Source: Tetrahymena thermophila SB210
Taxonomy: Eukaryota; Ciliophora; Oligohymenophorea; Hymenostomatida; Tetrahymenidae
Direction of reading: 5' to 3'
Assembly: GCF_000189635.1 (NCBI RefSeq)
Contig: NW_002476031.1
Coordinates: 1 to 64,000 of the forward strand
Length of the DNA: 64,000 nt
In this document: positions 34,508-62,244 of the stretch, in pieces
Position numbering within the stretch: position 1 is the first letter of the stretch
Layout: the number at the start of each line of letters is the position of its first letter
Notes under the pieces: model-generated
Databases searched by the model: none
Seen by the model: only the letters and a program-made list of their open reading frames with translations
What the model was told of the DNA's origin: nothing
Position numbers and translations under genes: made by a program

Positions 34508-37500
34508 TCAAAATTAAAATAATAAGTTATTTTATAAAATATTTGGTTGCTTTCTCTTTCTTTTTCTGGACCAGTATTTTACTTTCACAATATTTTTGAA
34601 ATTCTCTTAATGCGTCATTTCTATATCATAGTAGTTCATTATTTTTTTATTGATAACTTATAAACCACCTCCATGAGCTAATAACAAATTCATACTCTAA
34701 TTCAAATCTTCTATTTATTTTTGTTATTTTTTTTGATTTATTTTTTATTTTATAATTGTAACTAACTGCACTAATAAACCTAAAATCATGTAAATAGGTT
34801 ACTCTACTAAAATTATTTGAACTACCACTATAAATATTTAACTTACTGTATCAATTTAGTTTGCATAGTTATTTAAGTCTGGTTTTGTACAGAATATATT
34901 TAATAACAAATATAGAATGTAAAGAAAAAGCCAAGAACAATACTAAACAATAAAGTAAGCATTAGTTAGCTTAGAGTAAAATGGCATATAATATGTCACT
35001 ACTATTAGTTGACTCAAAGATACAACTATAGATATTATGCACACAACAAGCCAGTACTAACTCAATTAAATAAAATATGTTGGAATGATAAATGACTCAA
35101 AGAGTAATACTATTAGAATAAAATTTCTAGTTGGTTTTAGCTCTTCCTTTGTTTCAATCTATAATTTCTATTTAACAATCATGTTAAATTATTATTCTTA
35201 CAAAGAAACTTTGTTAAGGAAAATGTAAAACGTGTAAAATGTTCCAACACAAATTCCAAACAAAGTAATAATCAAAGGAATTTCAAAGATTAATTATTCA
35301 GCATTAAAATTTTTTATATATTGCTTTACTTAAGCATTTATTCCAATTATAAATATAGTCATAGTTAGCTAAAAGTACTGAATAATAAATGAGCAGAATA
35401 TTATTTCATATATTTTAGTTGATTTAGATTTTATATTTTGATTTTAAATCTTAACGCTTAGAAAGTAAAATATAATAAATGAGAATAGGCATATTAAAAA
35501 TAGGACCAAAGCTTATCCACAAGTAGCTAAAGTAAAATAAGCTAATCCTACAGATTCAAATTTTGCATCATAATATTAAATATCCGTCGAATCTATATAC
35601 AGCAAAAATAAGTTCAGTTACTTAAATGATTGAGATGGAAGTTAACCTAATATTTTATTTCATTAAAAAACTTTTATAAAAGCTAAATATTTTTTTTACC
35701 TTTTAAAGCATTAATTTATTCAAATATATGAGCAGGAAAATTTGTCTTGACTAAAATGAGATAACTTAATTTCTGAGATGTTAATCCACTCTATGAGACT
35801 CCAAAACTTGAGCTTGACATAACATTTTAAGCAGCATTTAAGCCAATGGAACCTACAGAAGAAATTTACGATGTTGTTTAAGTTTATTATTGTATTTATT
35901 TGATTTTTTCATTAGTAAATACTGTAGAATTATATGTTTGGTATTATTATAAACAAGTAGAATCTTTTAGAATAAACCCATCTAAGCAAGATGTGCATTA
36001 TCTATTGTTAGCAGCAGAACATGTTAGACAATTAGAATCACATGGAATACAAATACCACTTTATAAAAAAAATATTTTCAATAAACATTTATATTAATTA
36101 TATTAAATACAAATTAAAATTGATTTTTTTAATAAAAATTACTTGATTAAATTACTACTGATTGGGCAAACACATTTTGTGTTTGAAGGATCCTGAATAA
36201 ACGAAGAAGGGCATGGTGAAGAACAAGTTGCATTAATAGTTAGATAGTATCCAGTTATACAAGTTACACAAACTGTTTATGAAGAGCATTTGTCACATTG
36301 TGAAGAGCAAGGTTGACATACATCATTCAGATCTATAAATCCTGATGATATACAAGGACATACTTAACTAAATATTTTTAATTATTTAAGGAATTTACTT
36401 TTTAGTTTATTTTAAATAATCAAAATTTGATTAATTACTTTTATAAGGTACTATAAGGGCGACAAATACATTTAGTATTTGTTGAATCTTTGACAAATGT
36501 AGTAGGGCACTATGAAACACAGGTATTATCTATTGTTAAGTAAAATCCAGAGGTACAAACTTTACAAACTGTTTATGAAGAGCATTAATCACAATTAGAT
36601 GGGCACTATTAGCAAACACCTAAAACATCTAAATATTAAACATTACAAGGACAAGTTTTGCTAAATTTAATATAAAATAAAATAAATCATTTTAGATATT
36701 ATTATAATAAAATTATCATACTTTTAAAGAGAGCTATTACTACGGCAGATACATTTCGTATTAGTAGAATCCACAGTGAATGTAGAAGGGCAATTAGAAA
36801 CACAAGTTCCATCTACAAACAAGAAATACCCATTAGAACATACAGTGCATGTTGTTTATGTGGAACATTGATCACAATTTGATCCACATGGCAAGCAATT
36901 ACCTCCTATATCTATGTAACCAGTATTGCAAGGACATGTATTTCTAATTAAAAAAAATTTTAAGTTTAAGTTATTTATTTATTAAAGTTAAAAATATTTT
37001 ATCAGAATTATGAAATTTTATTTTATTTTTTTCATTAAAATTTTTAAAATTTTCATATTTAATTTAATTAAAATAATAGAAAGTTAAACAGAGTGATTTT
37101 TTTTATTTATTTGAAATATAAAACTTTTAAATTATATTTTGATATTGTGAATTGAAAATTAAAAAAAGAATTCTTTGATAAAATAATTTTTATTTTACAC
37201 TTAAAATTTACTATTAACACGACAAGCGCAATATTAATTAGAATTATCATTTACAAAAGTAGATGGACATGGATTAACACAAGTTCCATCTAGAAATAAG
37301 TAATATCCTGAGGCGCATACCTTACAAGTATTTTATGAGGCACAATTAAGACAATTTGCAGTACATAATTAACAATTGCCTGCAACATCAATATAGCCAT
37401 TATTGCAATCACATGAATTTCTATTTAAAATAAATAATAAGTTTTTAAGGCTATTAATTTATGTTTAGAATTAAATGTTTGTAAAACTTTTGAATGTTTT

Positions 37501-40500
37501 ATTTAAATTTTATTTAATATAATAGATTTACTGATTTAATAATCATGATTAATTAATTAATAAATAAAAATTAAATCAAATTAGATTAGATTAAAATTTT
37601 TTTAAATATTTGTTGATACTTACTTATTTTTTAATTTAAACTAATAAAACAGTTAATTTATTTCTTATTATTCTTTTTGAAGTATTATTTTGAGAAAAAT
37701 CAATTACTTTCCTGGTGATATTGAACTATTAGGACGACAATCACAAGATTTAGTTGAACTATTAGAAACAAATGTAGTAGGACATGAAGAAACGCAAGTA
37801 CCATCAATAAATAAGTAATAATTTGACTTACAAGTAGTGCATTATGTTTAAGTGGAGCATATATTGCAATTTGCAAGACATGGAACGCAATTACCTCCTA
37901 CATCTAAAAAACCTGTGTTACAAGGGCATTGATTTCTTTATAAAATTAAAAAAATAATTCAAATATTTTATTTAATTTGATTTTTATATTTAAAATATTA
38001 AAGATTATGGTTTAAGAATTAAAATTTTTAAATATTTGTTAATGACACTTATATTTTAAAACAAACTAAAAAAAAAATTTATCAGTTAATATAAATTTGA
38101 GAAAAATCAAATATAATTTGCTACTATGGTGATATGGAGCTATTAGGACGACAAACACAAGATTTAGTTGAACTATTAGGAACAAATGTAGTAGGACATG
38201 AAGAAACGCAAGTACCATCAATAAATAAGTAATAATTTTACTAACAAGTAGTGCATTATGTTTAAGAGGAGCATACATTGCAATTTGTAGGACATGCTAC
38301 GCAATTACCTCCTAGATCTAAAAAACCTGTGTTACAAGGGCATTGATTTCTTAATAAAATTAAAATTTAATTAAAGTATTTTTTTTAATTAAATTTAATA
38401 TTTAAAATATTAAAAGCTTAAAAAATAGAAATTATGTACTTAGTATATATTTCAGCTTTAAAATAATACAAATTATCATTAAGTAAATTAAGTTAATAAG
38501 AAAGTGAAAGAATATTTTTTTTATTGTAATTTATTTTCCTTTTAAATTTTAACCTATTTTTGCTACAGTAATTATTTTTTATTAATTTTTGATTGAAAAA
38601 TATAATCTTAAAATGGTTAAACAAAAATCTATTATTTAAAAAAAAGCTTATCAAAACTTATTACGATATTAAACTACTATTAGGACGGCAAGCACAGCTT
38701 TAATTTTAATTGTTCTTTATAAATGTACTTGGGCATTAAGAAACACAAGTCCCATCTAATATAGATAGAAACCCTGATGAGCAAATAGTGCAAGTTACAC
38801 CTACAGGTAGTAAACTACAATTAGCTGGACATTAATATGAATCCCCATTGTGATCTATATAATATCCTGATGAACATATGGCTGCTCCACTTCCAGATTA
38901 ATCACAAGCATACGGTTAATTAAGGCAAGAACATGAAGCACCTGCGAAACAATTACTTATGCAAGTGCCTGTATTACTTAAATAAAATCCACTTGAGCAT
39001 GTAGTGCAAGCTGTTAGAGATGTGCATGAAGTACAATAGTGAGAACATGATTAAATTAACCTAAATTTACTATTAAATTTGCTACTTTGATAATAATTTA
39101 ACTGAAAAGTTTAAAGTGAAATGTTGTTTTTGTCTGATAAATAGGTCTAGAGTCTATTTAAAAAATTAAATGTGCAAATTCCATTTTTATTAAGATAATA
39201 TCCATCTTAACATATTTTACAATTCGTTTGAGTGAAACATTTTTTACAATTTAAAGGACATTTTTCACATACCCCATTTAAATTAACATATGAAATATTG
39301 CAAATACATTTTTATCTATTATTTTTAAAAGTTAAGGTTCAAAATTTTAAAAAATAATTATTTTTTTATACACTTTAATTTAAAGGTTGAAGGTATATAT
39401 AATTTTTTTTAAGTATATTTATTCTTGTTAATTATTAATTTATGAATATATCAAATTTAAAAAATAAATTTACTCTTGCAAAGTGCTATTAGGTTGGCAA
39501 ACACATTTATTTTAAGTAGTATCTAAAACAAAAGTTATTGGACAAACCAAACCAAACAATTTATTTGAAATCAAATATAGAGGAGATTTAATTATTGTAC
39601 AGAAATTAAAAGTAATAAACATATTATCCTAAATCTCACATAGATTTAAATCCTAAAATATATTTATAAAAACATTTTATTTAATTTGAATTAGTAAATA
39701 AGTAATAAGCTTTGTTCTATATCAAATAGAAATTATGAAAATCTTAAATATAATAACTAATAAAAGCTATTAATATATTTGTAAAAGATAAAAAGTAAAT
39801 AAAATTATTTTTTAAAATTACAAATTCTTCAGCTAAATATTTCAAATTTTATTAATTAAAATGATAAGGATATATAGAGACATTTTCAGAGATTAGTGTG
39901 ATAATAACAATATTAGACTCACAATCATATGACAATTTATATTAAAACTAATTAATATAAATGATATCCTAATTTTAATTAAAAATTTAAGAATGAGTTG
40001 TTATGGTTTAAATATTTTAGTTTTACATCTACTTACACAATAGTAAGATATTCAGCATTCTGAATATATATTGGAGTAAATTATACCTAATATAATTCTT
40101 AAACACTATAAAATGTAAAGATTCTTCTCTCATACTCGAACGTAAATATCAAAATTATCTTTTTTAAAAATTTTAGTCATTAGTATAAAAAACTTTTTAA
40201 TTTTTTTGTAATCCAAATAATAATTACTTAAGGAAATTCTATCACATCAGAAATAAAAATTCTATTCTTAAAAGATAAATTTAATTTAACTTTAGTAGTA
40301 TCATCTAAAAGTCCTTCTTTATAAGTGATCACCTTAAGTAAATAATCATCGTTTATGAATACATTGTATTTACTCTATTAAAAAAATAGAATCTTAAATA
40401 AATATTTGAAAATCTATGTTAAAGAAAAAAAAATAAAATATCTTTTTATTTTTAATGAAAGTCTTATTTAATTAATATTCTTATTTAAAAGTAATGAAAC

Positions 40501-41528
40501 CAATTGTGGAGAAAAAAATTCTTATTGAATTTTATTAAATAAATTGGATATTTATTTTATCACTTTAATCAAAAACAAATTTGTATCAAAAACTTTTTTA
40601 GTTTACTACTTTTATTAATTGATCACCAATTTACTTTTATTTAAAAATGTATTTAGATCGATTTATTATTTAGTTTTTTGTCTCCGAAATAGTTTTTGTA
40701 TATCTAATTTGAAGGGGAAAAAATATATTACATTAATTAAATAGTCTTTGCTTTCTAAGATTGAAGAGTGTAATTTATAAGACTGATTTCCATAAAATAA
40801 AAGATCATTATCTAATTAAATAAAATTATGCCCAAAGCTAATATTTTCACCATAAAAGATTATTGGTTAATTTAATAATTCTTCAAAGCTTAAGCCCTTT
40901 AATAAAAATCTATTTTTTTTATCTAGGCATGCGTAAAAGAATATGTTTTCCTATTTATTAATTTTAAATAAATATTTATCAAAAAATAATTTTGAATAAA
41001 AATCAATTTATGAAATTACAATAGCCTTTAAGATCTTTTTTTTGCAATCCTAATAAATATTAGAGGAAATATTATATGTGATTATTTATAAATTAGAGCT
41101 TTTAGATTTATATTCTAAATCAATCGTTTAATATTAATTATTCTTATTGATTAAGTAAAGAGTAGTCTATTGTTAATAAGTAATAATTAAAATTTGGGTT
41201 AATATGAATAAAATTTACATTTATAACAAAATTATCTAAATGAGAATCTATGTTAAAAGATCCCTATATTTTGTATGTATCAGTTATAATTCCCTACTTG
41301 TCTAATGAGCTATATTTAAATTCCACATTATTTACTTCTTAGTAAATTATGGAATTAGCTTACTTATTTATAAAAAAAAAAAGTGTAATGAATAATAAAT
41401 AAAATATTTATTTTTGAGAAATTTACCTTTATATATAAGATTTTGTTCATAATTTATTATGGTAGAATATCAGAGCATAAAATAAAGATTAAGTAGCTAG
41501 CGAAAATAAAAAATACTTTTTTACACAT
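34508..41528 (-). CDS. Paralog A: cysteine-rich repeat, multi-transmembrane surface protein (6 repeats)
   Basis: Seventeen exons, 4704 nt in total (1568 codons, 1567 aa). Exons: 41528-41427, 41362-41219, 41166-41020, 40950-40732, 40374-40228, 40158-40033, 39968-39822, 39652-39474, 39315-38665, six repeat exons (38349-36143), 36058-35700, 35646-34508. There is a signal peptide (MCKKVFFIFASYLIFILCSD). The ectodomain is about 430 residues without repeats, then a cysteine-rich region beginning CVCQPNSTLQ, then six ~75-residue furin-like or growth-factor-receptor-like cysteine-rich repeats. A Ser-rich segment follows, then about seven hydrophobic helices (for example ALVLFLICLFSFIIFYFL and FILIVLLFESFIIPTYF) and a basic cytoplasmic tail. 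The family occurs widely in ciliates; receptor or adhesion roles are conjecture. The tail is 13 residues longer than in B and C, whose TGA comes earlier. Confidence 0.9.
36143..38349 (-). repeat. Paralog A cysteine-rich repeat exon array (6 exons)
   Basis: Repeat exons: 38349-38125 (225 nt), 37935-37708 (228), 37420-37199 (222), 36943-36722 (222), 36660-36439 (222), 36367-36143 (225). All start and end in phase 2. Each encodes the pattern CPC...G.C..C..NC..C.....C..C...YYL..D.TC...CP..F.......C.CRPNSS, about twelve cysteines. The first two are of the expandable type e. The last four are distinct types a, b, c and d that recur in order in genes B and C. Confidence 0.92.
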
Positions 41529-42988
41529 AGCATATTTGAATAGTGCTCTTTTAATAGGAAAATCAATCTTTTATTTTACTTTATTTTATTCAAATTTTAT
41601 AATACTTATTTATCTATGAATATTATTAAAAACTCGAATTTTTGTTTACATTATTTGTTATGTAATTAACTTAATTAATATCTTCTAATTACAGAATTAT
41701 TTTTGATTGAAATTAATTTAATAAATACTCACCATAAATTTTAATAAACAATCAATGTATATGTAATAAAGCTGGATATTTCTTTTCAATTCATAATATT
41801 TTAATTTTATTAATAAAATATTCAAATAATTAATTATCAACTTATTTTACAAGATAATTATTTAATTAGATAAAAATATTTTAATTTATTTATAAATTTA
41901 CCAATTAATTTCTTGATACTACTATTTTCTTTAAAATGTTAATTGCTGTTTAAATATTTATATAATTATATATCTTATAACTTTATTGCATATGATTTTA
42001 AAAAAATTATTTTAGCAATTATAATTATTGAAATTTTATAAAATATTTGAGGTAAATTTATTTATTTATTTATCTTACAAACAGATATGAAGGCCATAAG
42101 GCAAATAAAATAAATTAAAATAAAATTTGTAATATATTTGAGGTAAAGTAGCAAAGTAAATAAATAAATATTATTAGTAAATAATTTAATTTAGCAATAA
42201 AAAAATATTCATCTTAGGTCATTTTAAATTTGAATTTTTTAACAAAAGATTTATTTTATTCACCAAATAAAAAATTGAATTCGTATTTTATTTTAATTTT
42301 TATCAATTATTAAAAGCTTCTCTAAATATTTTTCAAATAATTTAATTATTTTTAGAATTTGGTGGGAAAATTTAAACTCAGTTAACATCTATCTACTTAA
42401 TAATTTAAATATTAATATCTTTTAGGAATCGTAAAAAATATTTTTCCGAAATCTACTATAAGAATTTAAAGCTTAAAAGAGATAGATAAAGAAAATGGAA
42501 TAAAATAACATAAATATAATAAATAAAATCGAGTTAGTGATGACACATTCTATTTTATGTTAAAAAATCAATTTAATTTTAAAATTTATTTATCTAATTA
42601 TATTTATAAAAAACAACATTCTTTGATAAATATTTGATTTAAAAATAAGTTATTGTTCAAAGTAAACAAAATAGGATTATCGCTTATAAAAACTATCATT
42701 TTTTGACTCAAAAATATCTTTATTTATTCTTAAAATATTATTTCCATATTATCCAAAAAAAATATATTTTACTTCTACAATCGAATAAATTTCTTAAGAA
42801 ATGTAAAAATATAGTAAACCTGGTTAATATTTAAATATATTAAAAAATTAAAAAGAGTTTTTTTTAAAAAAAGGCTTGATACAAAATATTTATTTACAAA
42901 AAAAAATATTTTTTTTAAATAATATTCATTATTATATATTTAGTATTCAAAATTAAGCTAATAAGTTATTTTAAAAAATAATGCTTGG
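41529..42988. other. Intergenic region between paralogs A and B
   Basis: AT-rich, no gene. It contains the promoter side of A and the 3' flank of B (from about 42660). Parts resemble the regions upstream of genes B and C (for example around 41560-41900), showing that upstream DNA was copied with the genes. No inserted element was seen here. Confidence 0.6.
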
Positions 42989-45900
42989 TCACTTTCTCTT
43001 TTTTTTTCTAGACCAGTAGTTTACTTTCACTAAGTTTTTGAAATTCTCTTGATGCATCATTTCTATATCATAGTAGTTCATAAGTTTTTGTTTGATAACT
43101 GATAACCCACCTCCATGAGCTAATAATAAATTCATACTCTAATTCAAATGTTCTGTTTCTTTTTATTGTTTTTTTTAATTTATTTTTTATTTTACAAGTG
43201 TAAATAACTATACTAATATAGCTAAAATCATGTAAATAGGTTGCTCTACTAAAATTATGAGAACTACCACTATAAATATTTAGCTTACTGTATCAATTTG
43301 GTTTGCGTAGTTATCTAAGTCTGGTTTTGTAGAGTATATATTTAATAACAAATATAGAATGTAAAGAAAAAGCCAAGAACAATACTAAACAATAAAGTAG
43401 GCGTTAGTTAGTTTAGAGTAAAATGGCAAATAGTATGTCACTATTATTAGCTGACTCAAAGATACAATTATTGATATTATACACACAGCAAGCCAGTGCT
43501 AACTCAATTAAATAAAGTATGTTGGAATGATAAATGACTCAAATAATAATACAATTAGAATAAAATTTCGAGTTGGTTTTAGTTCTTCCTTTGTTTCAAT
43601 CTATAATTTCTATTTAACAATCATGTTAAATTATTATTTTTACAAAGAAGGTTTGTTAAGGTAAATGTAAAATGTGTAAAATGTTCCAACACTAATTCCA
43701 AACAAAGTAATAATCAAAGGAATTTCAAAGATTAGTTTTTAAGCATTAAAATTTTTTATATATTGCTTTACTTAAGTATTGACTCCTATAATAAATATAG
43801 TCATTGTTAGCTAAAGGTACTGAATAATAAATGAGCAGAATATCATTTCATAAATTTTAATTGTTTTAGATTTTATATTTTGGTTTTAAATTTTAACGCT
43901 TAGAAAGTAAAATATAATAAATGAGAATAGGCATATTAAAAATATGACCAAAGCTTATCCACAAGTAGCTAAAGCGAAATAAGCTAATCCTACTGATTCA
44001 AATTTTGAATCATAATATTATATTTCTCTCGAATCTATAAACAATAAAAATAAGTTCAGCTATTTAAATGATTGAGATGGAAGTTAGCCTAATATTTTAT
44101 TTTATTAAAAAACTTTTAAAAATGTTTAATATTTGTTTTTACCTTTTAAAGAATTAATTAACTGAAATATATGAGCAGGAAAGTTTGTTTTGACTAAAAT
44201 GAGATAGCTTAATCTTTGAAATGTTAATCCACTCTATGAGACTCCAAAACTTGAGCTTGACATAACATTTAAAGCAGCACTTAATCCAATAGAACCATAA
44301 GAAGAAATTTATTATTCTGTTTAAGTTATTTATTTTATTAATTGAATTTTTTGTTTAGTAAATACTGTAGAATTATATGTTTGGTATTATTATAAGCAAG
44401 TAGAATCTTTTAGAATAAATCCATCAAAACAAGATGTACATTATTTATTATTAACAACAGAACATGTTTGACAGTTAGAATCGCATGGAATACAGATGCC
44501 ACTTTATAAAAAAAATTAGTTATAAACAATTATTTATATTAAATATATTAGTTAGAAATTAAAATTGATTTTTTTAAATAAATTTTACTTGATTAAATTA
44601 CTACTGGTTAGGCAAACACATTTTCTATTAAAAGGATTCTGAATAAATGAAGTAGGGCATGACGAAGAACAAGAAGCATTAATAGTTAGATAGTATCCAA
44701 TTATACAAGTTACACAAACTGTTTATGAAGAGCATTTTTCACATTGAGAAGAGCAAGGTTGACATACATCATTCAGATCTATATATCCTGATGATATACA
44801 AGGACATACTTAACTAAATATATTTAATTAATTAAGGAATTTAATTTTTAGTTTATTTTAAATAGTGAAAATTTGATAAATTACTTTTATAAGGTACTAT
44901 TAGGGCGACAAATACATTTAGTATTCGTTGAATCTTTGACAAATGTAGTAGGACACTATGAAACACAGGTATTATCTATTGTTAAGTAAAATCCAGAGGT
45001 ACAAACTTTACAAGCTGTTTATGAAGAGCATTAATCACAATTAGATGGGCACTATTAACAAACACCTAAAACATCTAAATATTAAATGTTACAAGGACAA
45101 GTTTAACTAAATTAAAATAAATAAATCATTTTAGATATTATTATAATAAAATATTCTTACTTTTAAAGAGAGCTATTACTACGGCAGATACATTTCGTAT
45201 TAGTAGAATCCACAGTGAATGTAGAAGGGCAATTAGAAACACAAGTTCCATCTATAAACAAGAAATACCCTTTAGAGCATGCAGTGCATGTTGTTTATGT
45301 AGAACATTGATCACAATTTGATCCACATTGTAAGCAATTACCTCCTAAATCTATATAACCAGTATTGCAAGGACATGTATTTCTATTTAAAAAAATTTTT
45401 TTAATTTAAGTTATTTATTTAATAAAGTTAAAAATATTTTATCAGAATTATGAAATTAAATTTTACATTTTTTATTAAAATTAATTTTTAAAAATTACAA
45501 ATTTAATTTAATTAAAATGATAAAAAGTTATTAAAAAAAATGATTTTTTATTATATTAACTTTTTTTTTTAATTTTAAATTTTAAGCTTCTTTAATTTAT
45601 AATTTATTTTAAATGAAGAAATTTGATAAATTACTTTTATAACGTACTATAAGGGCGACAAATACATTTAGTATTTGTTTAATCTTTGACAAATGGAGTA
45701 GGACAGTATGAAACGCAGGTGTTATCTATTGCTAAGTAAAATCCAGAGGAACAAACTTTACAAACTAATTATGAAGAACATTAATCACAATTAGATGGGC
45801 ACTATTAGCAGATACCTAAAACATCTAAATATTAAACGTTACATGGACAAGTTTAAGTTTTGCTAAATTAAAATAAATAAATAAATTTACACATATTAAA

Positions 45901-48900
45901 ATAAAATTATCTTACTTTTAAAGAGAACTATTACTACGGCAGATACATTTTGTATTAGTAGAATCTATAGTAAAAGTGGGTGGACATTTAGAAACACAAG
46001 AACCATCTATAAATAAGAAATATCCTTAAGAACATGTAGTGCAAGTTGATTATGTTGAACATTGATCACAATTTGATCCACAGGGTAAGCAATCACCTCC
46101 TAAATCTATGTAGCCAGTATTACAAGGACATACATTTCTATATAAAAATATTTATTTTTAGGTTTTAGTTATTTATTTGATAAATTAAATATTTATTATA
46201 CCAAATTAAATTATAAAATTTAATTTTTAATTTAATTAAAATAATAAAAAGTATTATTATATCTTGTTTTTTGAAATAATTTTTTTATTTGAACTATTAA
46301 GCTTTTCAATTATATTTGATAATTTTAATTGAGAGTTAATAAAAGTATTTTTTTAGTAAATTAATTAATTATTTTACGCTGACAATGTACTATTAACACG
46401 ACAAGTACATGATTAGTTAGATTTATCAATTACAAAAGTAGGTGGACACGGATTAACACAAGTTCCATCTGGAAATAAGTAATATCCTGAGGTACATACC
46501 TTACAGATTTTTTATGAGGCGCAATTAAGACAATTTGCAGTACATGCTAAACAACTACCTGCAACATCAATATAACCATTATTGCAAGCACATAAATTTC
46601 TATATAAAATATATAATAATAATTGGGCTATTAATTTAGATTTGGAAATAAATGCTTGTTAAACTTTTTAACACTTTATTTTAATTTTATTTTATATTAA
46701 AGATTTGAATTAATGACTCATTAATTTATCAAATAAATAAAATTAATTTATATTAAATTTAAAAAATTTTTAAATATTTGTTGAGATTTATATTTTAAAA
46801 CAAACTAAAAAAAAAATGTATATGTTATCTTTTGAAATATAAATTTGAGAAAAATCAAATAGAATTAGTTACCCTGGCGAAATGGAGCTATTAGGACGAC
46901 AATCACAAGATTAAGTTGAATCATTAGAAACAAATGTAGTAGGACATGAAGCAACACAAGTACCATCAATAAATAAGTAATATTTTGACTAACAAGTAGT
47001 GCATTATGTTTAAGATGAACATATATCGCAATTTATAGGACATGATACACAATCACCTGCTATATCCACAAAACCTGTGTTACAAAGGCATTGCTTTCTT
47101 TATAAGTTTAAAATTTAATTCAAAAATTTTTTTTAATATGATTGTAATATTTAAAATATTAAAAATTATGGTTAAAAAATTAATAAATACAAATAAAATA
47201 AATCAAATTTTAAAATATTTATTTGCACTTATTTTTAAAATAAACCAAAAAAAAATAAATTTATTTATTATTTTTGTAGAATAAATTTTGAAAAATAAAT
47301 TAGAATTTCTTACTTTGGTGATATGGAGCTATTAGGTCGACAAACGCAAGATTAAGTTGAATCGTTAGAAATAAATGTAGTAGGACATGAAGAGATACAA
47401 GTACCATCAATAAATAAGTAATATTTTTCCTAACAAGTAGTGCATTATGTTTAAGAGGAGCATATATTGCAATTTGCAGGACATGGAACGCAATTACCTC
47501 CTAGATCTATAAAACCTGTGTTACAAAGACATTACTTTCTTTATAAAATTAAAAATTTAATTCAAATATTTAATTTAATTTGATCATAATATTTAAAATA
47601 TTAAATATTGTGGTTAAAATTTTTAAATATTTGTTGACATTAATATTTTATAACAAACTAAAAAAAAATAAATGTATATGTTGTTTTTCTTTTGAAATAT
47701 AAGAAAAATCTAATAGAATTTGTTACCCTGGCGATAAGGAGCTATTAGGACGACAATCACAAGATTAAGTTGAATCATTAGAAACAAATGTAGTAGGACA
47801 TGAAGAAACACAAGTACCATCAATAAATAAGTAATATTTTGACTAACAAGTAGTGCATTATGTTTATGATAAACATATATCGCAATTTATAGGACATGAT
47901 ACACAATCACCTGCTATATCTACAAAACCTGTGTTACAAAGGCATTGCTTTCTTTATAAGTTGAAAATTTAATTCAAATATTTTTTTTAATCTGATTTTA
48001 GCATTTAAAATATTAAAAATGTTGGTTTAAAAATGAATTAATTTATAAATACTAATAAAATAAATCAAATTTTTAAATATTTATTAGCGCTTATTTATTT
48101 TTTAAAATTAACTAAAAAAAAATAAATTTATTTATTATTTTTGTAGAATATATTTTGAAAAATAAATTAGAATTTCTTACTTTGGTGATATGGAGCTATT
48201 AGTTCGACAAACACAAGATTAAGTTGAATCGTTAGAAATAAATGTAGAAGGACATGAAGAGACACAAGTGCCATCAATAAATAAGTAATATTTTTCCTAA
48301 CAAGTAGTGCATTATGTTTCCGAGGAGCATGTATCGCAATTTGAAGGACATGGTACACAATTAACTCCTTCATCTATAAAACCTGTGTTACAAAGACATT
48401 ACTTTCTTTATAAAATTAAAAATTTAATTCAAATATTTTATTTAATTTGATAATAAAATTTAAAATGTTAAAACTAACTAAAAAAAAAATAAATTTATCA
48501 GTTGTTTTTCTTTAGAAATATAAATTTGAGAAAAATTAAATAGAATTTGTTACTTTGGTGATATGGAGCTATTAGGACGACAATCACAAGATTAAGTTGA
48601 ATCATTAGAAACAAATGTAGTAGGACATGAAGAAACACAAGTGCCATCAATAAATTAGTAATATTTTTCCTAACAACAATTACTTCCTAGATCTACAAAA
48701 CCTGTGTTACAAAGACATTTATTTCTTTATAAATTAAAAATTTAATTAAAATATTTTACTTAATTTGATTTATATATATAAAATGCTAAAGATTGTGGTT
48801 TAAAAGTTAATTAATAAATATAAATAAATATGTTAAATTATATTTTAAAAATTTTAAAATATTTTTGACACTTATATTTTAAAACAAACTAAAAAAAAAA

Positions 48901-51900
48901 TAAATATATCTGTTGTTTTTTTTGAAATATAAATTTGAGAAAAATCAAATAGAATTTATTACTCTGGTGATATGGAGCTATTAGAACGGCAAACACAAGA
49001 TTAAGTTGAATCGTTAGAAATAAATGTAGTAGGACATGAAGAAACACAAGAACCATCAATAAATAAGTAATAATTTTTCTAACAAGTAGTGCATTATGTT
49101 TAAGAGGAGCATATATTACAATTTGTAGGACATGTCATGCAATTACCTCCTATATCTACAAAGCCTGTGTTACAAAGACATTTATTGCTTTATAAAATTG
49201 AATTTAATTAAAATATTAAGGATTAATGTTTAAAAATTAATTAATTAACAAATAAAAATAAATTAAATCAGATTTTTTAAATTTTTAAATGAATGATGAA
49301 ACTTATTTTTTAATTTAAACTAATAAAAAAATAAATTTATTTGAAATTATTTTTATTAAAGTATTTATTAATTTGAGTAAAATCAATTAGAATTTCTTAC
49401 GATGGTTATATAGAGCTATTAGGACGACAATCACAAGATTAAGTTGAATCGTTAGAAACAAATGTAGTAGGACATGAAGAAACACAAGAACCATCAGTAA
49501 ATAAATACTATTTTGACTAACAAGTAGTGCATTATGTTTAAGAGGAGCATATATTACAATTTTTAGGACATGGTAAGCAATCACCTCCTATATCTACAAA
49601 GCCGGTGTTACAAAGACATTTATTGCTTTATAAAATTGAATTAAATTAAAATATTTTGTTTAATTTAATATTCAAAATATTAAGAATATCGGTTTAAGAA
49701 TTAACTAATAAAAGTAACTTAAATCAGATTTAAAAAATTTTTTAATGCATTTTGAAACTTATTTTTTAATTTAAACTAATAAAAAAAATAAATTTATATG
49801 CCATTCTTCTTATTAAAGTATAAATTTGAGAAAAATCAATTAGAATTTCTTACGATGGTTATATGGAGCTATTAGGACGACAAGTACATGATTAAGTTGA
49901 ATCGTTAGAAACAAATGTAGTAGGACATGAAGAAACACAAGAACCATCAATAAATAAATACTATTTTGACAGACAAGTAGTGCATTATGTTTAAGAGGAG
50001 CATATATTACAATTTTTAGGACATGGTACACAATTAACTCCATCATCTATAAAACCTGAGTCACAAAAGCATTGATTTCTTTATAAAATAAAAAATTTAA
50101 TTCAAATATTTTATTTAATTTGTTTATAATATTTAAAATATTAAACCTATTTTTGTTTCAAAAATTATTTTTTATTTATTTTTGATTGAATAAAAAACCA
50201 AAAAAGTTCAATGAAAATCTTTTATTTAAAAAAAAACATATCAAAACTTATTACTAAAATAAAAAACTATTAGGACGGCATTAACAACTTTAATTTTAAG
50301 TGTTTTTTATAAACGTATCTGGACAAGAAGAAACGCAAGTTCCGTCTACTATAGAAAGAAATCCTGTTGATGAGCAAATGGTGCAAGTTACACCTACAGA
50401 TAGTAAACTGCAATTAGATGGGCATGGTTATACTACTCCATTGAGATCTATATATGATCCCGAATTACATGTGGCTTTTGCTCCTAATGAGGTGCAAGCA
50501 TATGGTTAATTAAGGCAAGGGCATGTAGAATCTTAAAAACATTTATTTAAACAATTCAATAAACCATTCATATAAAATCCGCCCATACATAAAGTGCAAA
50601 CTGTAGGAGATGAGCAAAAAAGACAAAATTGAGAACAAGATTAAATTAACCTAAACTTACTTTTTAAATTGGTACTTTGATAATAACTTAACTGATAATT
50701 TTAAAGCGAAATGTTGCTTTTCTCCAATTATTTCTAGAGCCTAATTGAAGAATTAAATGTGCAAACTCCATTTTTATCAAGATAATATCCATATTTACAT
50801 ATTTTACAATTAGTTTTAGTTATGCATTTATAACAATTTAAGGGACATTTTTCACATACTCCATTTAAATTAACATATGAAACATCGCAAACACACCTTT
50901 AGCTATTATTTATAAAAATTAATATAAAATAAAATATTTGTATTAAATTTTTTTATTTATTTAAGGTTATATTAGTTATGTTATTTGTTAGTATATAAAT
51001 ATATAAAATTAAAAAAAATAAATTTAAATTTACTCTTGCAAAGTGCTATTAGGTTGGCAAACACATTTGTTTTAAGAGGCATCAAAAACAAAAGTTACTG
51101 GGCAAACCAAACCAAACAATTTGTTTGAAATCAAATATAGAGGAGATTTAATAATTGTACAGAAATTAAAAGTAATAAACATATTATCCTAAATCTCGCA
51201 TAAACTTAAATCCTAAAATATATTGATTAAAATATTTTATTTAAAGTTAATTAATAAATAAAAATAAGATTTCTTGAATACTAAATAGAAATAATTAAAA
51301 TCTTAAATTTAATAACATAGTAAAGCTTAAATAAGTAAAATATAATTATTATAGTTGTAAAAGATAAAAATTAAAAGTCAAATAAAATTATTTTTAAGAA
51401 TTACAAATTCTTAAGCAAAATAGTTCAATTTTTATTAATTAAAATGATAAGGATATATCTAGACACTTTCAGAAATTAGTGTGATAACAACGATATTAGA
51501 CTCATAATCGTATGTCAATTTATATTAAAACTAATCAATATAAATTATATCCTAATTTTAATAAAAGTTTTAAGAAAAAATTATTAAGGTTTAAATATTT
51601 TAGCAATACATCAACTTATACAATAGAAAGATATTCAGTATCCGGAATATAAATAGGAGTAGATTATACCTAAAATAACTCTTAAACACTATAAAATGTA
51701 AAGATTTTTCTCTCATACTCGAACGTAAATATCAAAATTATCTTTTTATAATAATAAGAATAAAAGATTTTTTAATTTTTGTTTATAATTTAAATAATAA
51801 TTACTTATGGCAATTCTATAACATCCGAAATAAAAATTTTATTCTTAAAAGATACATTTAATTTTACTTAAGTAATAACATCCAAAATTCCTTCATGATA

Positions 51901-53159
51901 AGTGATCACCTTAAGTAAAGAATCATTGCTTATGAATAAATTTTATTTACTCTAATAAAAAAATAGAATCTTATTTAATAATTATTACAAAAATCAATGA
52001 TAAAGAACAAAAATATCTTTTAATATTTAATGAAAGTCTTATTTATTGATATTATCATTTAAAAGTAATGAAATCTATAGTTGGCAATAAATTACTTATT
52101 CACCATAATTTATATATTAGATATTTTTTTATCAATGTAATGACCAAAATTTTCTTTAGGTTACAGATTTTTTTAATTAATTACATATTTACTTTTTATT
52201 AAAAATTTATATCAATTTATTTTTTAATTTTTTTGTCTCCTTAATAGTTTCTATTTTTCTAATTTAAAGGGGAAAAAATAGATTACGTTAATTAAATAGT
52301 CTTTGTCTTCTAAGATTGAAAAGTGTAATTTATTTTTCTGATTTCCATTCAAAAATAAATTATTATCTAATTAAATAAAATTATGCCCAAAACCAATATT
52401 TTCACCATAAAAGCTTATTGGTGAATTTAACAATTCTTCTAAGCTTAAGCCCTTTAATAAAAACCTACTTTCTATATCTAAGCATACATAAAAGAATACA
52501 TTTTCCTATTTATTCATATGAAATAAATATTTATCAAAAAATAATTATTTAAAACTTTAAAAAAAAAAATATTTTGGTTATTTTATTTTTAAAAATAATT
52601 TTTAAATTATAATTAATTAATTACTATAGCCTTTACAATATTTTTTTTGCAATTGGATACTTCCTAATAGATCTAAGAGGAAAAATTATGTGTGATTACC
52701 TATAAATTAGAGCTTTTAGCTTTATATTCTAAATCAATTGTTTAATATTAGTTATTCTTATTTATTAAGTAAATAGTTGTCTTTTGTTAATTAAAAATAA
52801 ATTTTAAACAATTCTATAATAAGCAATAAGTAGAATGAATAAAATTTACATTTATAACAAAATTATCTAAATGAGAATCTATGCTAATAGATCCAAATAT
52901 TTTTTATGTATCAGTTATTATTCCCTACTTATCTAATGAACTATATTTAAATTCCATATTATTTTCTTCTTAGTAAATTATGGAATTAGTTTCCTTATTT
53001 GAAAAAAAAAAAGTGTAATGAATATTAAATAAAATATTTATTTTTGAAAAAATTTACCTTAATATATAAGATTTTGTTCATAATTTATTTTGGCAGAATA
53101 TCTGCACATAAAATAAAGCTTAAATAGCTAGCATATATTAAAAATATTTTTTTATGCAT
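42989..53159 (-). CDS. Paralog B: cysteine-rich repeat, multi-transmembrane surface protein (14 repeats)
   Basis: Twenty-five exons summing to 6414 nt (2138 codons, 2137 aa). Leading exons: 53159-53058, 52993-52850, 52780-52625, 52505-52287, 51951-51805, 51741-51616, 51551-51405, 51212-51034, 50902-50255. Then come fourteen repeat exons (50078-44589), 44501-44143 and 44088-42989. It has the same plan as A: signal peptide (MHKKIFLIYASYLSFILC), repeat-free ectodomain, cysteine-rich repeats, Ser-rich linker, about seven transmembrane helices and a basic tail. The intron 52506-52624 contains a TGA in frame and is not a multiple of three. It therefore proves the splice site that is ambiguous in A. 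The standard-code frames on both strands here are shadows or fragments of repeat exons. Confidence 0.9.
44589..50078 (-). repeat. Paralog B cysteine-rich repeat exon array (14 exons)
   Basis: Exons in transcription order: 50078-49854, 49625-49401, 49187-48963, 48724-48554 (short), 48405-48181, 47951-47727, 47538-47314, 47097-46873, 46599-46378, 46137-45916, 45862-45635, 45382-45161, 45106-44885, 44813-44589. All are phase 2 to phase 2 and mostly 222, 225 or 228 nt. The first eight are type e, near-identical copies. The order then is a, b, c, b, c, d, so the b-c pair is doubled relative to A and C. Repeat-to-repeat spacing of about 450-490 bp in the e block shows that intron and exon were copied together. 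Confidence 0.93.
48554..48724 (-). repeat. Repeat exon of paralog B with 54-nt in-frame deletion
   Basis: This exon is 171 nt, exactly 54 less than the normal 225. Compared with its neighbours, it lacks the block coding from about the third Cys to the CTTC motif. It joins directly between CCTAACAA and CAATTAC, with a short CAA repeat at the joint. Eighteen codons and about seven cysteines are lost, yet the frame is kept. Confidence 0.85.
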
Positions 53160-54498: not shown

Positions 54499-57400
54499 TC
54501 ACTTTCTCCTTTTTTTTCTAGACCAGTAGTTTATTTTCACTAAGTTTTTGAAATTCTCTTGATGCATCATTTCTATATCATAATAGTTCATAATTCTTTT
54601 TTTGACAACTGATAACCCACCTCCATTAGCTAATAAAAAATTCATACTCTAATTCAAATCTTCCATTTCTTTTTGTTGTTTTTTTTGGTTTATTTTTTAT
54701 TTTATTATTGTAAATAACTGCACTAATAAAGCTAAAATCATGTAAATAGGTTACTCTACTAAAATTATTTGAACTACAACTATAAATATTTAGCTTACTG
54801 TATCAATTTAGTTTGCATAGTTATTTAAGTCTGGTTTTGTACAGAATATATTTAATAACAAATATAGAAAGTAAAGAAATAGCCAAGAACAATACTAAAC
54901 TATGAAGTAAGCATTAGTTAGCTTAGAGTAAAATGGCATATAGTATATCACTATTATTAGTTGACTCAAAGATACAACTATTGATATTATACACACAGCA
55001 AGCCAGTGCTAACTCAATTAAATAAAATATGTTGGAATGATAAATGACTCAAACAGTAATACTATTAGAATAAAATTTCTTGTTAGTTTTAGCTCTTCCT
55101 TTGTTTCATTCTATAATTTCTATTTAACAATCATGTTAAATTATTATTTTTACAAAGAAACTTTGTTAAGGTAAATGTAAAATGAGTAAAATGTTCCAAC
55201 ACTAATTCCAAACAAAGTAATAATCAAAGGAATTTCGATGATTAGTTTTTTAGCATTAAAATTTTTTATATATTACTTTATTTAAGTATTGATTCCTATA
55301 ATAAATATAGTCACTATTAGCTAAAAGTACTGAATAATAAATGAACAGAATATTATTTCGTAAACTTTAATTGATTTAGATTTTATATTTTGGTTTTAAA
55401 TTTTAACGCTTAGAAAGTAAAATATAATAAATGAGAATAGGCATATTAAAAATAGGACCAAAGCTTATCCACAAGTAGCTATTGTGAAATAAGCTAATTC
55501 TACAGATTCAAATTTTGCATCATAATACTATATTTCTCTTGAATCTAAAAACAACAAAAATAAATTCAGCTACTTAAATGATTAAGATGGAAGCTAACCT
55601 AATATTTTATTTTATTAAAAAACTTTTAAAAATGTTTTATATTTGTTTTTACCTTTTAAAGAATTAATTAACTGAAATATATGAGCAGGAAAGTTTGTCT
55701 AGACTAAAATGAGATAACTTAATTTCTGAGATGTTAATCCACTCTATGAGACTCCAAAACTTGATGTTGACATAACATTTTAAGCAGCATTTAAGCCAAT
55801 AGAACCATAAGAAGAAATTTACGATGTTGTTTAAGTTTATTATTGTATATATTTTATTTTTTCATTAGTAAATACTGTAGAATTATATGTTTGGTATTAT
55901 TATAAACAAGTGGAATCTTTTAGAATAAACCCATCAAAACAAGATATACATTATTAATTGTTAGCAGCAGAACATGTTAGACAATTAGAATCACATGGAA
56001 TGCAAATACCACTTTATAAAAAAAAAATTTTCAACAAAAATTTTTATTAATATATTAAAAACAAATTTAAATTGATTTTTAAAAAATAAATTTTACTTAA
56101 TTAAATTACTACTGATTGGACAAACACATTTTGTATTTGAAGGATCTTGAATAAATGAAGTAGGGCATGGCGAAGAACAAGTTGCATTAATAGTTAGATA
56201 GTATCCAGTTATACAAGATACACAAACTGTTTATGAAGAGCATTTGTCACATTGAGAAGAGCAAGGTTGACATACATCATTCAGGTCTATAAATCCTGAT
56301 GATAAACAAGGACATACTTTACTAAATATATTTTATTAAATAATTAATGAATTTAATTTTTAGTTTATTTTAAATAATGAACTTTAATAAATTACTTTTA
56401 TAAAGTACTATTAGGGCGACAAATACATTTAGTGTTCGTTGAATCTTTGACAAATGTAGTAGGACACGATGAAACACAGGTGTTATCTATTGTTAAGTAA
56501 AATCCAGAGGAACAAACTTTACAAACTGTTTATGAAGAGCATTAATCACAATTAGAAGGGCACTATTAGCAAACACCTAAAACATCTAAATATTAAACGT
56601 TACAAGGACAAGTTTAAGTTTTGCTAAATTAAAATAAATTCATCACTTTTTAAATATTAAAATAAAATTATCTTACTTTTATAGAGAACTATTACTACGA
56701 CAGATACATTTTGTATTAGTAGAATCTACAGTAAATGTGGGTGGGCATTTAGAAACACAAGAACCATCTACAAACAATAAATATCCTATAGAACATGTAG
56801 TGCAAGTTGATTATGTTGAACATTGATCACAATTTGATCCACATGGTAAGCAATCACTTCCTAAATCTATGTAGCCAGTATTACAAGGACATGCATTTCT
56901 AAATAAAAATATTTATTTTTAAGTTTTAGTTATTTATTAGATAAAGTTAAATATTTTTGATATCAAATCAAATAATAAAAATTTTTTTTTTTATTAAAAC
57001 AATAAAAGTTATATAATTTCATGTTTTTGAAATAATTTTTTTTCTTTGAACTATTAATATATTTTGATAATTTTAATTGAGAGTTAACAAAAATATTTTT
57101 TTTAATATGTTTAATAATTATTTTACGCTGATAATGTACTATTAACACGACAAGTACATGATTAGTTAGATTTATCAATTAAAAAAGTAGGTGGACACGG
57201 ATTAACACAAGTTCCATCTGGAAATAAGTAATATCCTGAGGCACATACCTTACAGGTTTTTTATGAAGCGCAATTAAGGCAATTTGCAGTACATGCTAAA
57301 CAACTGCCAGAAACATCAATATAACCAGTATTGCAAGCACATTAATTTCTATATAAAATAAATAATAAGAAAAGGGTTATTAATTTAAATTATTATTTTT

Positions 57401-60400
57401 TTCAAATTAAAAAATTTTTTTAATATTTGTTGAAATTTTTTTTTTAAAACAAACTAAAAAAAATAAATTTATCTACTGTTTTTCTTTTGAAATATAAATT
57501 TGAGAAAAATTAAATAGAATTTGTTACCCTGGTGATATGGAGCTATTAGGACGACAAACACAAGATTAAGTTGAATCATTAGAAACAAATGTAGTAGGAC
57601 ATGAAGAAACACAAGTACCATCAATAAATAAGTAATATTTTGACTAACAAGTGGTGCATTATGTTTAAGATGAGCATATATCGCAATTTATAGGACATGA
57701 TACACAATCACCTGCTTTGTCTACAAAACCTGTGTTACAAGGGCATTGCTTTCTTTATAAGTTTAAAATTTAATTCAAAAAATTTTTTTAATTTTATTGT
57801 AATATTTAAAATATTATAAATTATGGTTAAAAAATTAATTAATTTATAAATAAAAATAATTTAAATTAAATTTTTAAATATTAATAAGCTTTTATTTTTT
57901 AAAATAAACCAAAAAAAAATTTATTTATTGTTATTATTTTTGCTGAATAAATTTGAGAAAAATCAATTAGAATTTCTTACTTTGGAGATATCGAGCTATT
58001 AGGTCGACAAACACAAGATTAAGTTGAATCATCAGATTTAAATGTAGTAGGACATGAAGAAACACAAGAACCATCAATAAATAAGTAATATTTTGACTAG
58101 CAAGTAGTGCATTATTTTTCAGAGGAGCATGTATCGCAATTTGTAGGACATGATATGCAATCACTACCTAGATCTACAAAACCATTGTTACAAAGACATT
58201 AATTTCTTTATAAAATAAAAAATTTAATTCAAATATTTTATTTAATTTGATAATGACATATAAAATATGAAAAATTGGCGCTTAAAAGTTAATTAATAAA
58301 TATAAATAAATTAAATAATAATTAAAATTTTTTAATATACTTGTTAGCACTTATTTATTAATATAAACTAGTAAAAAAATAAATTTATCTGCTATTATTC
58401 TTTTTGAAGAATAAATTTGGGAAAAATCAATTAGAATTTCTTACTTTGGTGATATGGTGCTATCAGGTCGACAAACACAGGATTAAGTAGAATCATTAGA
58501 TTTAAATGTAGTAGGACACGAAGAAACACAAGAACCATCAATAAATAAGTAATATTTTGACTAGCAAGTAGTACATTAATTTACCGAGGAGCATTTATTA
58601 CAATTTTTAGGACATGATTCACATTTACCTCCTACATCAATAAAACCTGTGTTACAAATACATTTATTGCTTGATAAAATTGAAGTTAATTAAAATATTA
58701 TGATTAATTTTAGTATATAATTTAAAATATTAAGGAATGCGGTTTAAGAATTAATATAAATAAATTAAATCAAATTAAAAATCTTTAAAATACTTATTGA
58801 AACTTATTTTTTAATTTAAACTCATAAAAAAATAAATTTATATTCTGCTATTCTTTTTAAAGAATAGATTTAAGAAAATCAAGTAGAATATCTTACGATG
58901 ATTGTTTGGAGCTATTAGAAGGACAATCGCAAGATTAAGTTGAATCGTTAGAAATAAATGGAGAAGGACATGAAGAAACACAAGTACCATCAATAAATAA
59001 GTAGTATTTTGACTAACAAGTAGTGCATTATGTTTCAGAGGAGCAACTATTACAATTTGTAGGACATCTTACACAATCAACTCCTTTATCTCCAAAACCT
59101 GTGTTACAAAGGCATTACTTTCTTTATAAAATCGAATTTAATTAAATTATTTTGCTTAATTTGATTATAATATTTAAAACATTAAACCTAATTTTGTTTC
59201 AAAAATTATTTTGAATTAATTTTGGATAGAATAACAACCCAAATAAGGTTCAACGAAAATTTATTATTTAAAAAAAACTTATCAAAACTTGTTACCCAGA
59301 TAAACTACTATTAGGACGGCACTCACAACTATTATTTGAAGTGTTCTTTATAAATGTACTTGGACATTCAAAAACACAAGTACCGTCTACTATATTAAGA
59401 AATCCATTTGTTGGTTAGCAAATGGTGCAAGTTACACCTGCAGGTAGTAAACTACAATTCGATGGGCATGATACTATTACTCCATTGTAATTTTTATATT
59501 ATCCTGAATTGCAATAAACTGCGTTTATTCCAGTTTAGTCGCATAAATATGGTTATTTATTGCAATAGCATGAAGCATTCTAATAACATAAACTAATACA
59601 ATAGTATAAACCATTTGGTTAATATCCATCTTAGCATTTAGTGCAGACTGTAGGAGATGAGCATTAAACACAATATTAAGAACAAGATTAAATTAACCTA
59701 AACTTACTTTTAAATTGGGTATTTTGATAATAACTTAACTGAGAATTTTAAAGCGAAATGTTAATTTTTTCCAATTACGTCTAGTGCGTAATTGAAAAAT
59801 TAAATGTGCAAACCCCATTTTTATCAAGATAATATCCATATTTACATACTTTACAATTAGTTTTAGTTATGCATTTATAACAATTTAAGGGACATTTTTC
59901 ACATAATCCATTTAAATTAACATATGAAATATTGCAAACACACTTTTAGCTATTATTTATAAAAATTAATAATAAATATATCTAACTTAAAAAAAAAATC
60001 GAGAAAAAAATTTTCTCAATTTATGAATTTACTAAATAAAAAAAAAATTAATTTATGTATATAAATTTTATTTTTTTTAAGGTTAACTCGCTATGTTATT
60101 TATTAGTATATAAGTATTCAAATTTAAAAAAAATAAATTTAAATATACTCTTGCAAAGTGCTATTAGGTTAGCAAACACATTTATTTTAAGTGGCATCTA
60201 AAACAAAAGTTACTGGACAAACCAAACCAAACAATTTGTTTGAAATCAAATATAGAGGAGATTTAATTATTGTACAGAAATTAAAAGTAATAAACATATT
60301 ATCCTAAATCTCGCACAAACTTAAATCCTAAAATATATTGATTAAAACATTTTATTTAAAGTTAATTAATAAATAAAAAATAATATTTCTTCAATACTAA

Positions 60401-62244
60401 AAAGAAATAATTTAAATCTTAAATTTAATAACTTAATAAAGCCTAAATAAGTAAAATAAAATGATTATATTTATAAAAGATAAAAATTAAAAATTAAATA
60501 GAATTATTTTTAAGAATTACAAATTCTTAAGCAAAATAGTTCAATTTTTATTAATTAAAATGATAAGGATATATCGAGACACTTTCAGAAATTAGTGTGA
60601 TAACAACGATGTTAGACTCATAATCATATGTTAATTTATATTAAAGCTAATTAATATAAATTATATCCTAGTTTTAATAAAAATTTTAAGAATTAATAAT
60701 AAAGGTTTAAATATTTTAACAATACATCAACTTATACAATAGAAAGATATTCAGTATCTGGAATATAAATAGGAGTAGATTATACCTAAAATAATTGTTA
60801 AACACTATAAAATGTAAAGATTCTTCTCTTGTACTCGAACGTAAATATCAAAATTATCTATATTTATAATAATAAGAATAAAAGATTTTTTAATTTTTGT
60901 TAATAATTTAAATAATAATTACTTATGGCAATTCTATTACATCTGAAATAAAAATTTTATTCTTAAAAGATACATTTAATTTTACTTAAGTAATAGAATC
61001 CAAAAGTCCTTCTTTATAAGTGATCACCTTAAGTAAAGAATCATTGCTGATGAATAGATTTTATTTACTCTATTAAAAAATAGAAACTTATTTAATAATT
61101 ATTACAAAAATCAATGATTAAGAACAAAAATATCTTTTTATATTTAATGTAAGTCTTATTTATTGATATTATCATTTAAAAATAATGAAATCAATAATCG
61201 AAAACAAATTACTTATTAATTATCAATATAATTACAAAAACTTTCTTTAGTTACAACTTTTTTTAATTAATTACTCACTAATTACTTTTTATTTATAATT
61301 TGTATCCATTTATTATTTAATTTATTATACCTAATAGTTTCTATTTTTTTAATTTTAAGGAAAAAAAAGATTACTTTAATTAAATAGTCTCTGCTTTCTA
61401 AGATTGAAGAGTGTAATTTATTGTTCTGATTTCCTTTCAAAAATAAATTATTATCTAATTAAATAAAATTATGCCCAAAGCTAATATTTTCACCATAAAA
61501 TATTGTTTGTGAATTTAATAATTCGTCAAAGCTTAAGCCCTTTAATAAAAATCTATTTTCTTTATCTAAGCATGCGTAAAAGAACATATTTTCCTATTTA
61601 TTCATTTTAAATAAATATTTATCAAAATTTAATTATTTAAATCTATTTTTTAAAAATATTTTGGTTATCTTATTTTATAATATAATTTTTAATGATAGTT
61701 AATTAATTAATGAAATTACTATAGCCTTTACAATATTTTTTTTGCAATTAGATACTTCCTAGTAGATATAAGAAGAAAAATTATGTGTGATTAGGTATAA
61801 ATTAGAGCTTTTAGCTTTATATTCTAAATCAATTGTTTAATATTAGTTATTCTTATTTATTAAGTAAAGAGTAGTCTTTTATTTATAAAAAATAAATATA
61901 AAGCATAGGTAGATTAGATCTCTAAGAAAAACTTACATTTATAACAAAATTATCTAAATAAGAATCTATGTTAATAGATCCATATATTTTTTATGTATCA
62001 GATATTATTCCCTACTTATCCAATTAACTATATTTGAGTTCCATATTACTTTCTTCTTAGTAAATTATGGAATTAGTTTCCTTATTTGAAAAAAAAATGT
62101 GTAATGATTATTAAATAAGATATTTATTTTTAAGAAATTTACCTTTATATATATGATTTTGTTTCTAATTTACTTTGGCAGAATATCAGAACATAAAATA
62201 AAGCTTAAATAGCTAGCGTATATAAAAAATACTTTTTTATACAT
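54499..62244 (-). CDS. Paralog C: cysteine-rich repeat, multi-transmembrane surface protein (8 repeats)
   Basis: Nineteen exons summing to 5130 nt (1710 codons, 1709 aa). Leading exons: 62244-62143, 62080-61937, 61875-61720, 61593-61375, 61069-60923, 60857-60732, 60667-60521, 60327-60149, 59949-59296. Then come eight repeat exons (59121-56097), 56011-55653 and 55598-54499. There is a signal peptide (MYKKVFFIYASYLSFILC). Most non-repeat exons match B in length to the base. The large pre-repeat exon (654 nt) is the most diverged part. The last exon ends at the same TGA position as in B. About seven transmembrane segments close the protein. No internal TGA was found in the spliced frame, so all three copies look functional. 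Confidence 0.9.
56097..59121 (-). repeat. Paralog C cysteine-rich repeat exon array (8 exons)
   Basis: Exons in transcription order: 59121-58897, 58669-58445, 58205-57981, 57752-57528 (four type e, 225 nt each), then 57348-57127 (type a, 222), 56898-56677 (b, 222), 56623-56396 (c, 228), 56321-56097 (d, 225). All have phase-2 borders. The same a-b-c-d block closes the array in A. Confidence 0.92.

Follow-up and report, generated by a model that had tools for sequence, protein, structure and literature searches.

Tandem Tetrahymena thermophila genes with variable arrays of furin-like repeat exons encode putative surface proteins with about seven predicted membrane helices

Background

Genes that grow by arrays of equal exons have already been described in Tetrahymena. 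In the comparison of Xiong et al. (2019; PMC6564038), leucine-rich repeat (LRR) genes are reported to contain arrays of 90-bp exons with phase-2 introns; T. thermophila genes have from 1 to 51 such exons, and the authors propose that unequal crossing-over acts inside LRR genes as well as between them. In the same paper, GFR is one of the seven domains that occur most often among species-specific genes across all ten Tetrahymena species, and it is reported as expanded in each of them. Among individually described proteins of T. thermophila, MTA, MTB and MRC1 combine a GFR domain with five transmembrane helices and belong to the mating-type recognition complex (PMC10901506, PMC3608545). Here we analyze a 64,000-nucleotide stretch of T. 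thermophila SB210 DNA (the window) in which three tandem genes, referred to as g1, g2 and g3, carry different numbers of furin-like repeat exons between a set of shared N-terminal exons and a last exon with putative membrane helices. Among the titles and abstracts of the open-access literature that we searched, there was no report of GFR exon arrays in Tetrahymena.

Results

The window comprises positions 1-64000 of contig C390 (NW_002476031.1; 86,667 bp), and genome searches were performed over the 101-Mb assembly. A telomerase reverse transcriptase query of 117 residues from this genome aligns over 100 residues to PDB 2r4g, the T. thermophila entry; the single difference falls at the edge of an intron that was translated through, and the remaining 17 residues belong to that intron. 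This marker places the genome in T. thermophila or very close to it. When read with translation table 11, the window contains no open reading frame of at least 120 aa from 30 kb onward; long frames emerge once TAA and TAG are read as glutamine (ciliate code 6, TGA as stop). Gene models were derived by comparing the paralogs and by using a codon table that had been trained on the genes themselves. They comprise three intact genes, all on the minus strand and arranged head to tail, which together span 34508-62244 without interruption of their models. With repeat numbers as assembled, g1 (41528-34508) has 17 exons and encodes 1569 aa with six repeat exons, g2 (53159-42989) has 25 exons and encodes 2137 aa with 14 repeat exons, and g3 (62244-54499) has 19 exons and encodes 1711 aa with eight repeat exons. 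The ninth exon of g2 may start 9 nt upstream, as it does in g1 and g3, which would give 2140 aa. All 58 introns of the three genes have a GTA donor and an AG acceptor, a uniformity that is partly built in by a site search that required such sites. The exon plan is common to all three genes: a first exon with a hydrophobic start is followed by seven more N-terminal exons, a long cysteine-rich exon, the block of repeats, an exon of 359 nt and, finally, the exon that bears the putative membrane helices. A sequence-only reading of this DNA had placed three tandem paralogs at 34508..62244, with 6, 14 and 8 repeat exons and an exon plan that is shared while the length of the repeat array changes. 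The curated models bear out the plan and return exactly that span and those counts; of the predicted lengths (1567, 2137 and 1709 aa), the second stood and the other two were each 2 aa short.

The likeness of the paralogs is not due to chance, because their last exons are 91-92% identical and their repeat exons up to 97% identical at the DNA level. In their 600-bp upstream regions, the three genes share 75-79% identity by MAFFT alignment and 83-88% by pairwise alignment, which suggests, if anything, shared control. The intergenic gaps measure 1460 bp (g1-g2) and 1339 bp (g2-g3), and a further 1861 bp separate g3 from a fourth paralog, g4, on the same strand of the same contig at about 74058-64106. 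The earlier count of three paralogs thus holds for the window, while the array itself goes on beyond it. The fourth gene carries 16 repeat exons and is more diverged, its last-exon protein being 67% identical to that of g1; its exon borders were set by analogy, without hand curation.

The repeat blocks lie at 36143-38349 in g1 (six exons of 222-228 nt), 44589-50078 in g2 (13 exons of 222-228 nt and one of 171 nt) and 56097-59121 in g3 (eight exons of 222-228 nt), all on the minus strand and all running from phase 2 to phase 2. Every repeat exon of g1-g3 (28 of 28) is divisible by three and flanked by phase-2 introns, and divisibility extends to 44 of 44 when the 16 exons of g4, with their borders set by analogy, are included. 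Because of these lengths and borders, exon-intron units can come and go in frame. With the 171-nt exon left out, all 27 full-length repeat exons match the Pfam family Furin-like_2 (PF15913) at E ≤ 0.01; the first of them scores 29.2 bits against a cut-off of 28, in a match that spans the second half of the profile. A profile of the repeats finds the furin-like domains of R-spondins in the PDB (4c99 and others; best E 3.3e-10), and 12 cysteines are invariant across the 27 repeats. An in-frame loss of about 18 codons has shortened this one exon of g2 (48724-48554) and removed four of the module's twelve cysteines.

A tree of the exons sorts the repeats of g1-g3 into classes that occur in the fixed order A(n)-B-C-D-E. 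Block A has two copies in g1, eight in g2 and four in g3, so that g1 reads A A B C D E, g3 reads A x4, B, C, D, E, and g2 reads A x8, B, C, D, C, D, E. Classes D and E have counterparts in g4, which has separately amplified an alternating two-exon unit (X-Y). Introns were duplicated together with their exons. Intron length was considered as a mark of recent copying; a simple form of this idea is contradicted by the B-C introns (228-255 nt), which are long without any amplification.

The second C-D pair of g2 is formed by repeats R12-R13 (45382-44885, minus strand). The B exon of g2 is g3-like (211/222 identical positions to g3, 194/222 to g1), as is its first C exon (209/222 to g3, 191/222 to g1), whereas the second C exon (C2, 45382-45161) is g1-like, with 213/222 positions identical to g1 and 194/222 to g3. 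The junction between the first D exon and C2 (45161-45634, minus strand), made up of a 252-nt intron and C2, would be the trace of the exchange between genes. Its intron is of the B-C type, matching the B-C intron of g1 at 199/225 positions and that of g3 at 176/210; the much shorter D-E introns (71 and 74 nt) can be aligned with no more than 69-74 of those 252 nt. The extra pair is best explained by an unequal exchange in which one partner was g3-like and the other g1-like, and we infer crossing-over rather than conversion. As a genomic mechanism, the gain and loss of exons through unequal recombination appears well supported by these comparisons.

Selection was estimated as omega (nonsynonymous to synonymous substitution rate) by the Nei-Gojobori method; class A was represented by 13 of its 14 members, without the 171-nt repeat, and the ninth exon of g2 entered at its modeled length of 642 nt. 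The last exon gave 0.23-0.26, the N-terminal exons 0.35-0.38, the 359-nt exon 0.35-0.42 and the pooled repeat classes 0.21-0.53; the long cysteine-rich exon 9 is the fastest part of the protein at 0.52-0.93. All estimates of omega, for segments and repeat classes alike, are below 1, indicating that repeats and proteins alike are under purifying selection and are maintained. These values bear on the possibility that the copy number drifts largely neutrally, the number of modules being a mere spacer and the array a young cluster of duplicates. The symmetric phases make gain or loss of a repeat harmless to the frame, and species-specific Tetrahymena genes are reported to show much tandem duplication, most of those in T. 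thermophila being silent or weakly expressed in axenic culture (PMC6564038). Omega below 1 throughout, however, argues that the proteins are maintained; repeat number itself lies outside that test, and we consider neutral drift in number a serious though doubtful alternative.

The same results bear on a different proposal, an antigenic-variation locus in which the paralogs would be alternative coats, only one being expressed at any time, with recombination with silent copies as the source of diversity. Tandem cysteine-rich paralogs are what such a locus would show, the Ser surface antigens of T. thermophila are described as cysteine-rich and changeable, with candidate genes in tandem arrays (PMC4136848), and a Giardia VSP profile matches 5 of the 27 repeats, at best with E 0.00044, through similar spacing of the cysteines. 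Against this, all 59 repeat-profile matches on the contig (E ≤ 1e-4) fall inside g1-g4. An A-block intron of g2 used as a query gave 22 matches in the genome, nine of them on the array contig; the other 13 scored only 55-62 bits, and we take these as AT-rich noise. The proteins end in a basic hydrophilic stretch instead of a hydrophobic tail of the type associated with glycosylphosphatidylinositol (GPI) anchors, as judged from the sequence. Because repeat omega is below 1 and no donor cassettes lie on the contig, a silent-copy system fits poorly, and we regard antigenic variation here as very improbable. The sequence-only reading had called the repeat array hypervariable and the locus one of surface receptors or antigens. 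Its length does vary, while its sequence, with the omega values given and 12 invariant cysteines, does not answer to that description; likewise the receptor-shaped, cysteine-rich paralogs agree with the first of the two suggested roles, while omega below 1 and the lack of silent cassettes on the contig speak against the second.

The predicted proteins have the outline of membrane proteins with a large cysteine-rich ectodomain. The first exon (g1, 41427-41528; g2, 53058-53159; g3, 62143-62244; minus strand) is signal-peptide-like, with a hydrophobic segment at residues 5-23, a call made from hydropathy. Five sequences of the N-terminal domain, two of them incomplete, were compared with the PDB, where nothing matched at E ≤ 10, and with Pfam, where the matches were no better than E 0.05. 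A beta-propeller was suspected there by eye and is not claimed. Outside the last 380 residues there are 117 cysteines in g1, 207 in g2 and 139 in g3. The last exon (g1, 34508-35646; g2, 42989-44088; g3, 54499-55598; minus strand) encodes a basic tail after about seven hydrophobic segments. In g1, the hydrophobic segments fall into seven groups, the final one about 40 residues long, with a basic stretch near the end. The proteins of g2 and g3 end in the basic hydrophilic tail, and that of g1 has 13 further residues after it.

This architecture is similar in outline to that of MTA, MTB and MRC1, and a mating or self/non-self recognition receptor related to these proteins was accordingly weighed. 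The array differs in running head to tail, where MTA and MTB form a head-to-head pair, in having its GFR modules in separate exons and not within the membrane exon, and in having about seven hydrophobic segments where those proteins have five helices. We judge such a relationship improbable. Nothing was found that favors an antigenic or a mating role, and neither is supported.

Relatives of the array were found elsewhere in the genome. Using the last exon of g1 as a query returned 52 rows, 46 of which are separate loci at E ≤ 1e-30 on 16 contigs; the other six are one second fragment, two partial matches and three weaker ones. Of the 46 loci, 39 lie on nine contigs with 2-11 members each, always on one strand per contig. 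The contig C51 has 11 members, and four of their last exons are preceded by 2, 5, 7 and 4 repeat-profile matches; models of those four genes contain phase-2 repeat exons of about 220 nt. The other seven members have 0-2 repeat matches, and one of them contains many shorter repeats inside one long exon. The exon plan of the array is also seen in C51 genes whose last exons are 37-41% identical. With a single repeat as the query, for which 150 of 242 candidates were scored, there were at least 140 genome matches, 54 of them on contig C112, in groups of 14, 12, 5, 8, 5, 2, 1 and 7 at about 85.6-191.9 kb. These comparisons support the view that variation in the number of repeats per array recurs in the C51 array and in the C112 groups.

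Several other features lie near the array. At about 14.5-17.5 kb of the window, on the plus strand, one model has a methyltransferase match together with a 2OG-Fe(II) oxygenase match below its cut-off, a combination that we take to be reminiscent of an ALKBH8-type protein; an assembly gap of 100 N begins at 16170 inside this region. The minus strand at about 15.1-30.2 kb encodes a very large protein that begins with a hydrophobic stretch and whose first 555 aa match no Pfam family; the gene finder merged its model with a neighboring protein kinase gene. Outside the window, a methionyl-tRNA synthetase gene neighbors the array at about 79.4-82.4 kb of the contig. Near the contig end (about 84.2-86.6 kb), the same frame recurs about every 600 bp, a spacing that exceeds the 500-bp period limit of the repeat finder.

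Discussion

The anatomy of the locus, the family it belongs to, the history of its repeats and the purifying selection on it are established from the sequence; a role of the family as surface receptors is likely. With moderate confidence, we read the array as a tandem Tetrahymena family of putative surface proteins, each with a GFR stalk and a membrane domain of about seven helices, in which exons can be gained and lost safely for the frame. Each module of about 75 aa corresponds to one exon, a multiple of three bases set between two phase-2 introns, and unequal crossing-over within and between neighboring genes would add or remove exon-intron units in frame. The number of modules would then set the length of the ectodomain and its binding surface while the membrane domain is kept, and the protein would act as a cell-surface receptor or recognition protein. 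We infer this function, as we do the surface location and the topology, which is most likely N-terminus out and C-terminus in, as in G-protein-coupled receptors (GPCRs).

A number of observations weigh against parts of this reading. The helix count of the last exon rests on hydropathy; its last hydrophobic stretch could hold two helices, giving eight and placing the tail outside, and the supposed ectodomain contains weaker hydrophobic segments of its own (two in g1, two in g2 and one in g3). Pfam searches with 23 last exons matched no seven-transmembrane (7TM) family at E ≤ 1, and a PDB profile search with the last exon yielded two dopamine-receptor entries, at E about 2, and nothing else. AlphaFold models reached a mean predicted local distance difference test score (pLDDT) of 37 for the last exon (three window paralogs) and of 49 for one repeat exon (27 window repeats), and models of this quality give no fold in favor of a GPCR. 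Contig C112 has only one last-exon match, about 85 kb beyond its last repeat group, so the furin-like module seems to occur also apart from the membrane domain of the array; the C112 groups are perhaps a related array with another C-terminus. As to the exchange in g2, its D repeats are uninformative on the parents (D1, 206/222 to g1 and 211/228 to g3; D2, 213/222 to both), g1 and g3 are the closest pair in the 359-nt exon, and g2 shows no steady leaning towards g1 downstream of C2. Gene conversion, or loss from a longer ancestor, may instead have produced the extra C-D pair. Long introns are not confined to copied junctions, as the B-C introns (228-255 nt) illustrate, and misassembly of the repeats would alter the array lengths.

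A bolder proposal is that these proteins form a class of seven-helix receptors peculiar to ciliates and without sequence relationship to the known GPCR families. Their choice of ligand or partner would be tuned in evolution by gain and loss of frame-safe cysteine-rich exons through recombination between tandem neighbors, which would furnish a modular recognition repertoire for prey, partners or kin. We consider this proposal unlikely. The tandem surface-protein family favored above extends gene growth by phase-2 exon arrays, published for Tetrahymena LRR genes, to a family of membrane proteins, and it offers one likely exchange between genes with identifiable parents. If the proteins are receptors, sets of 6, 8, 14 and 16 modules on one family of membrane domains would amount to a natural experiment in a genetically tractable cell. 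A published survey of ciliate GPCRs selected its candidates by known 7TM families and BLAST seeds (PMC9960496), and it may have missed the family because none of the 23 last exons matches a 7TM Pfam family.

R-spondins are secreted animal proteins, and the furin-like module is the only part that they have in common with the proteins of the array. The Ser immobilization antigens resemble the array in their repeated, cysteine-rich ectodomain and tandem arrangement (PMC4136848); unlike the array proteins, they are GPI-anchored, and the word 'transmembrane' does not occur in the text of that paper. MTA, MTB and MRC1 are likewise large membrane proteins of T. thermophila with a furin-like or GFR segment and several helices, yet in the accounts of MTA and MTB (PMC3608545, PMC10901506) the GFR segment lies inside the terminal exon, the helices number five, the genes form a head-to-head pair and no repeat-exon array is described. 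In its passages on Tetrahymena GFR genes, the LRR study describes neither GFR exon arrays nor a seven-helix last exon (PMC6564038). The furin-like modules of about 225 nt (222-228, one 171) differ from the 90-nt LRR exons, and whole genes are tandemly duplicated here, in contrast to about 1.6% of the T. thermophila LRR genes (PMC6564038). In their equal exons between phase-2 introns, their variable number and the repetition of complete exon-intron units, however, the two kinds of array are alike (PMC6564038), and the g1-g3 array looks like an LRR-type process operating in a GFR membrane-protein family.

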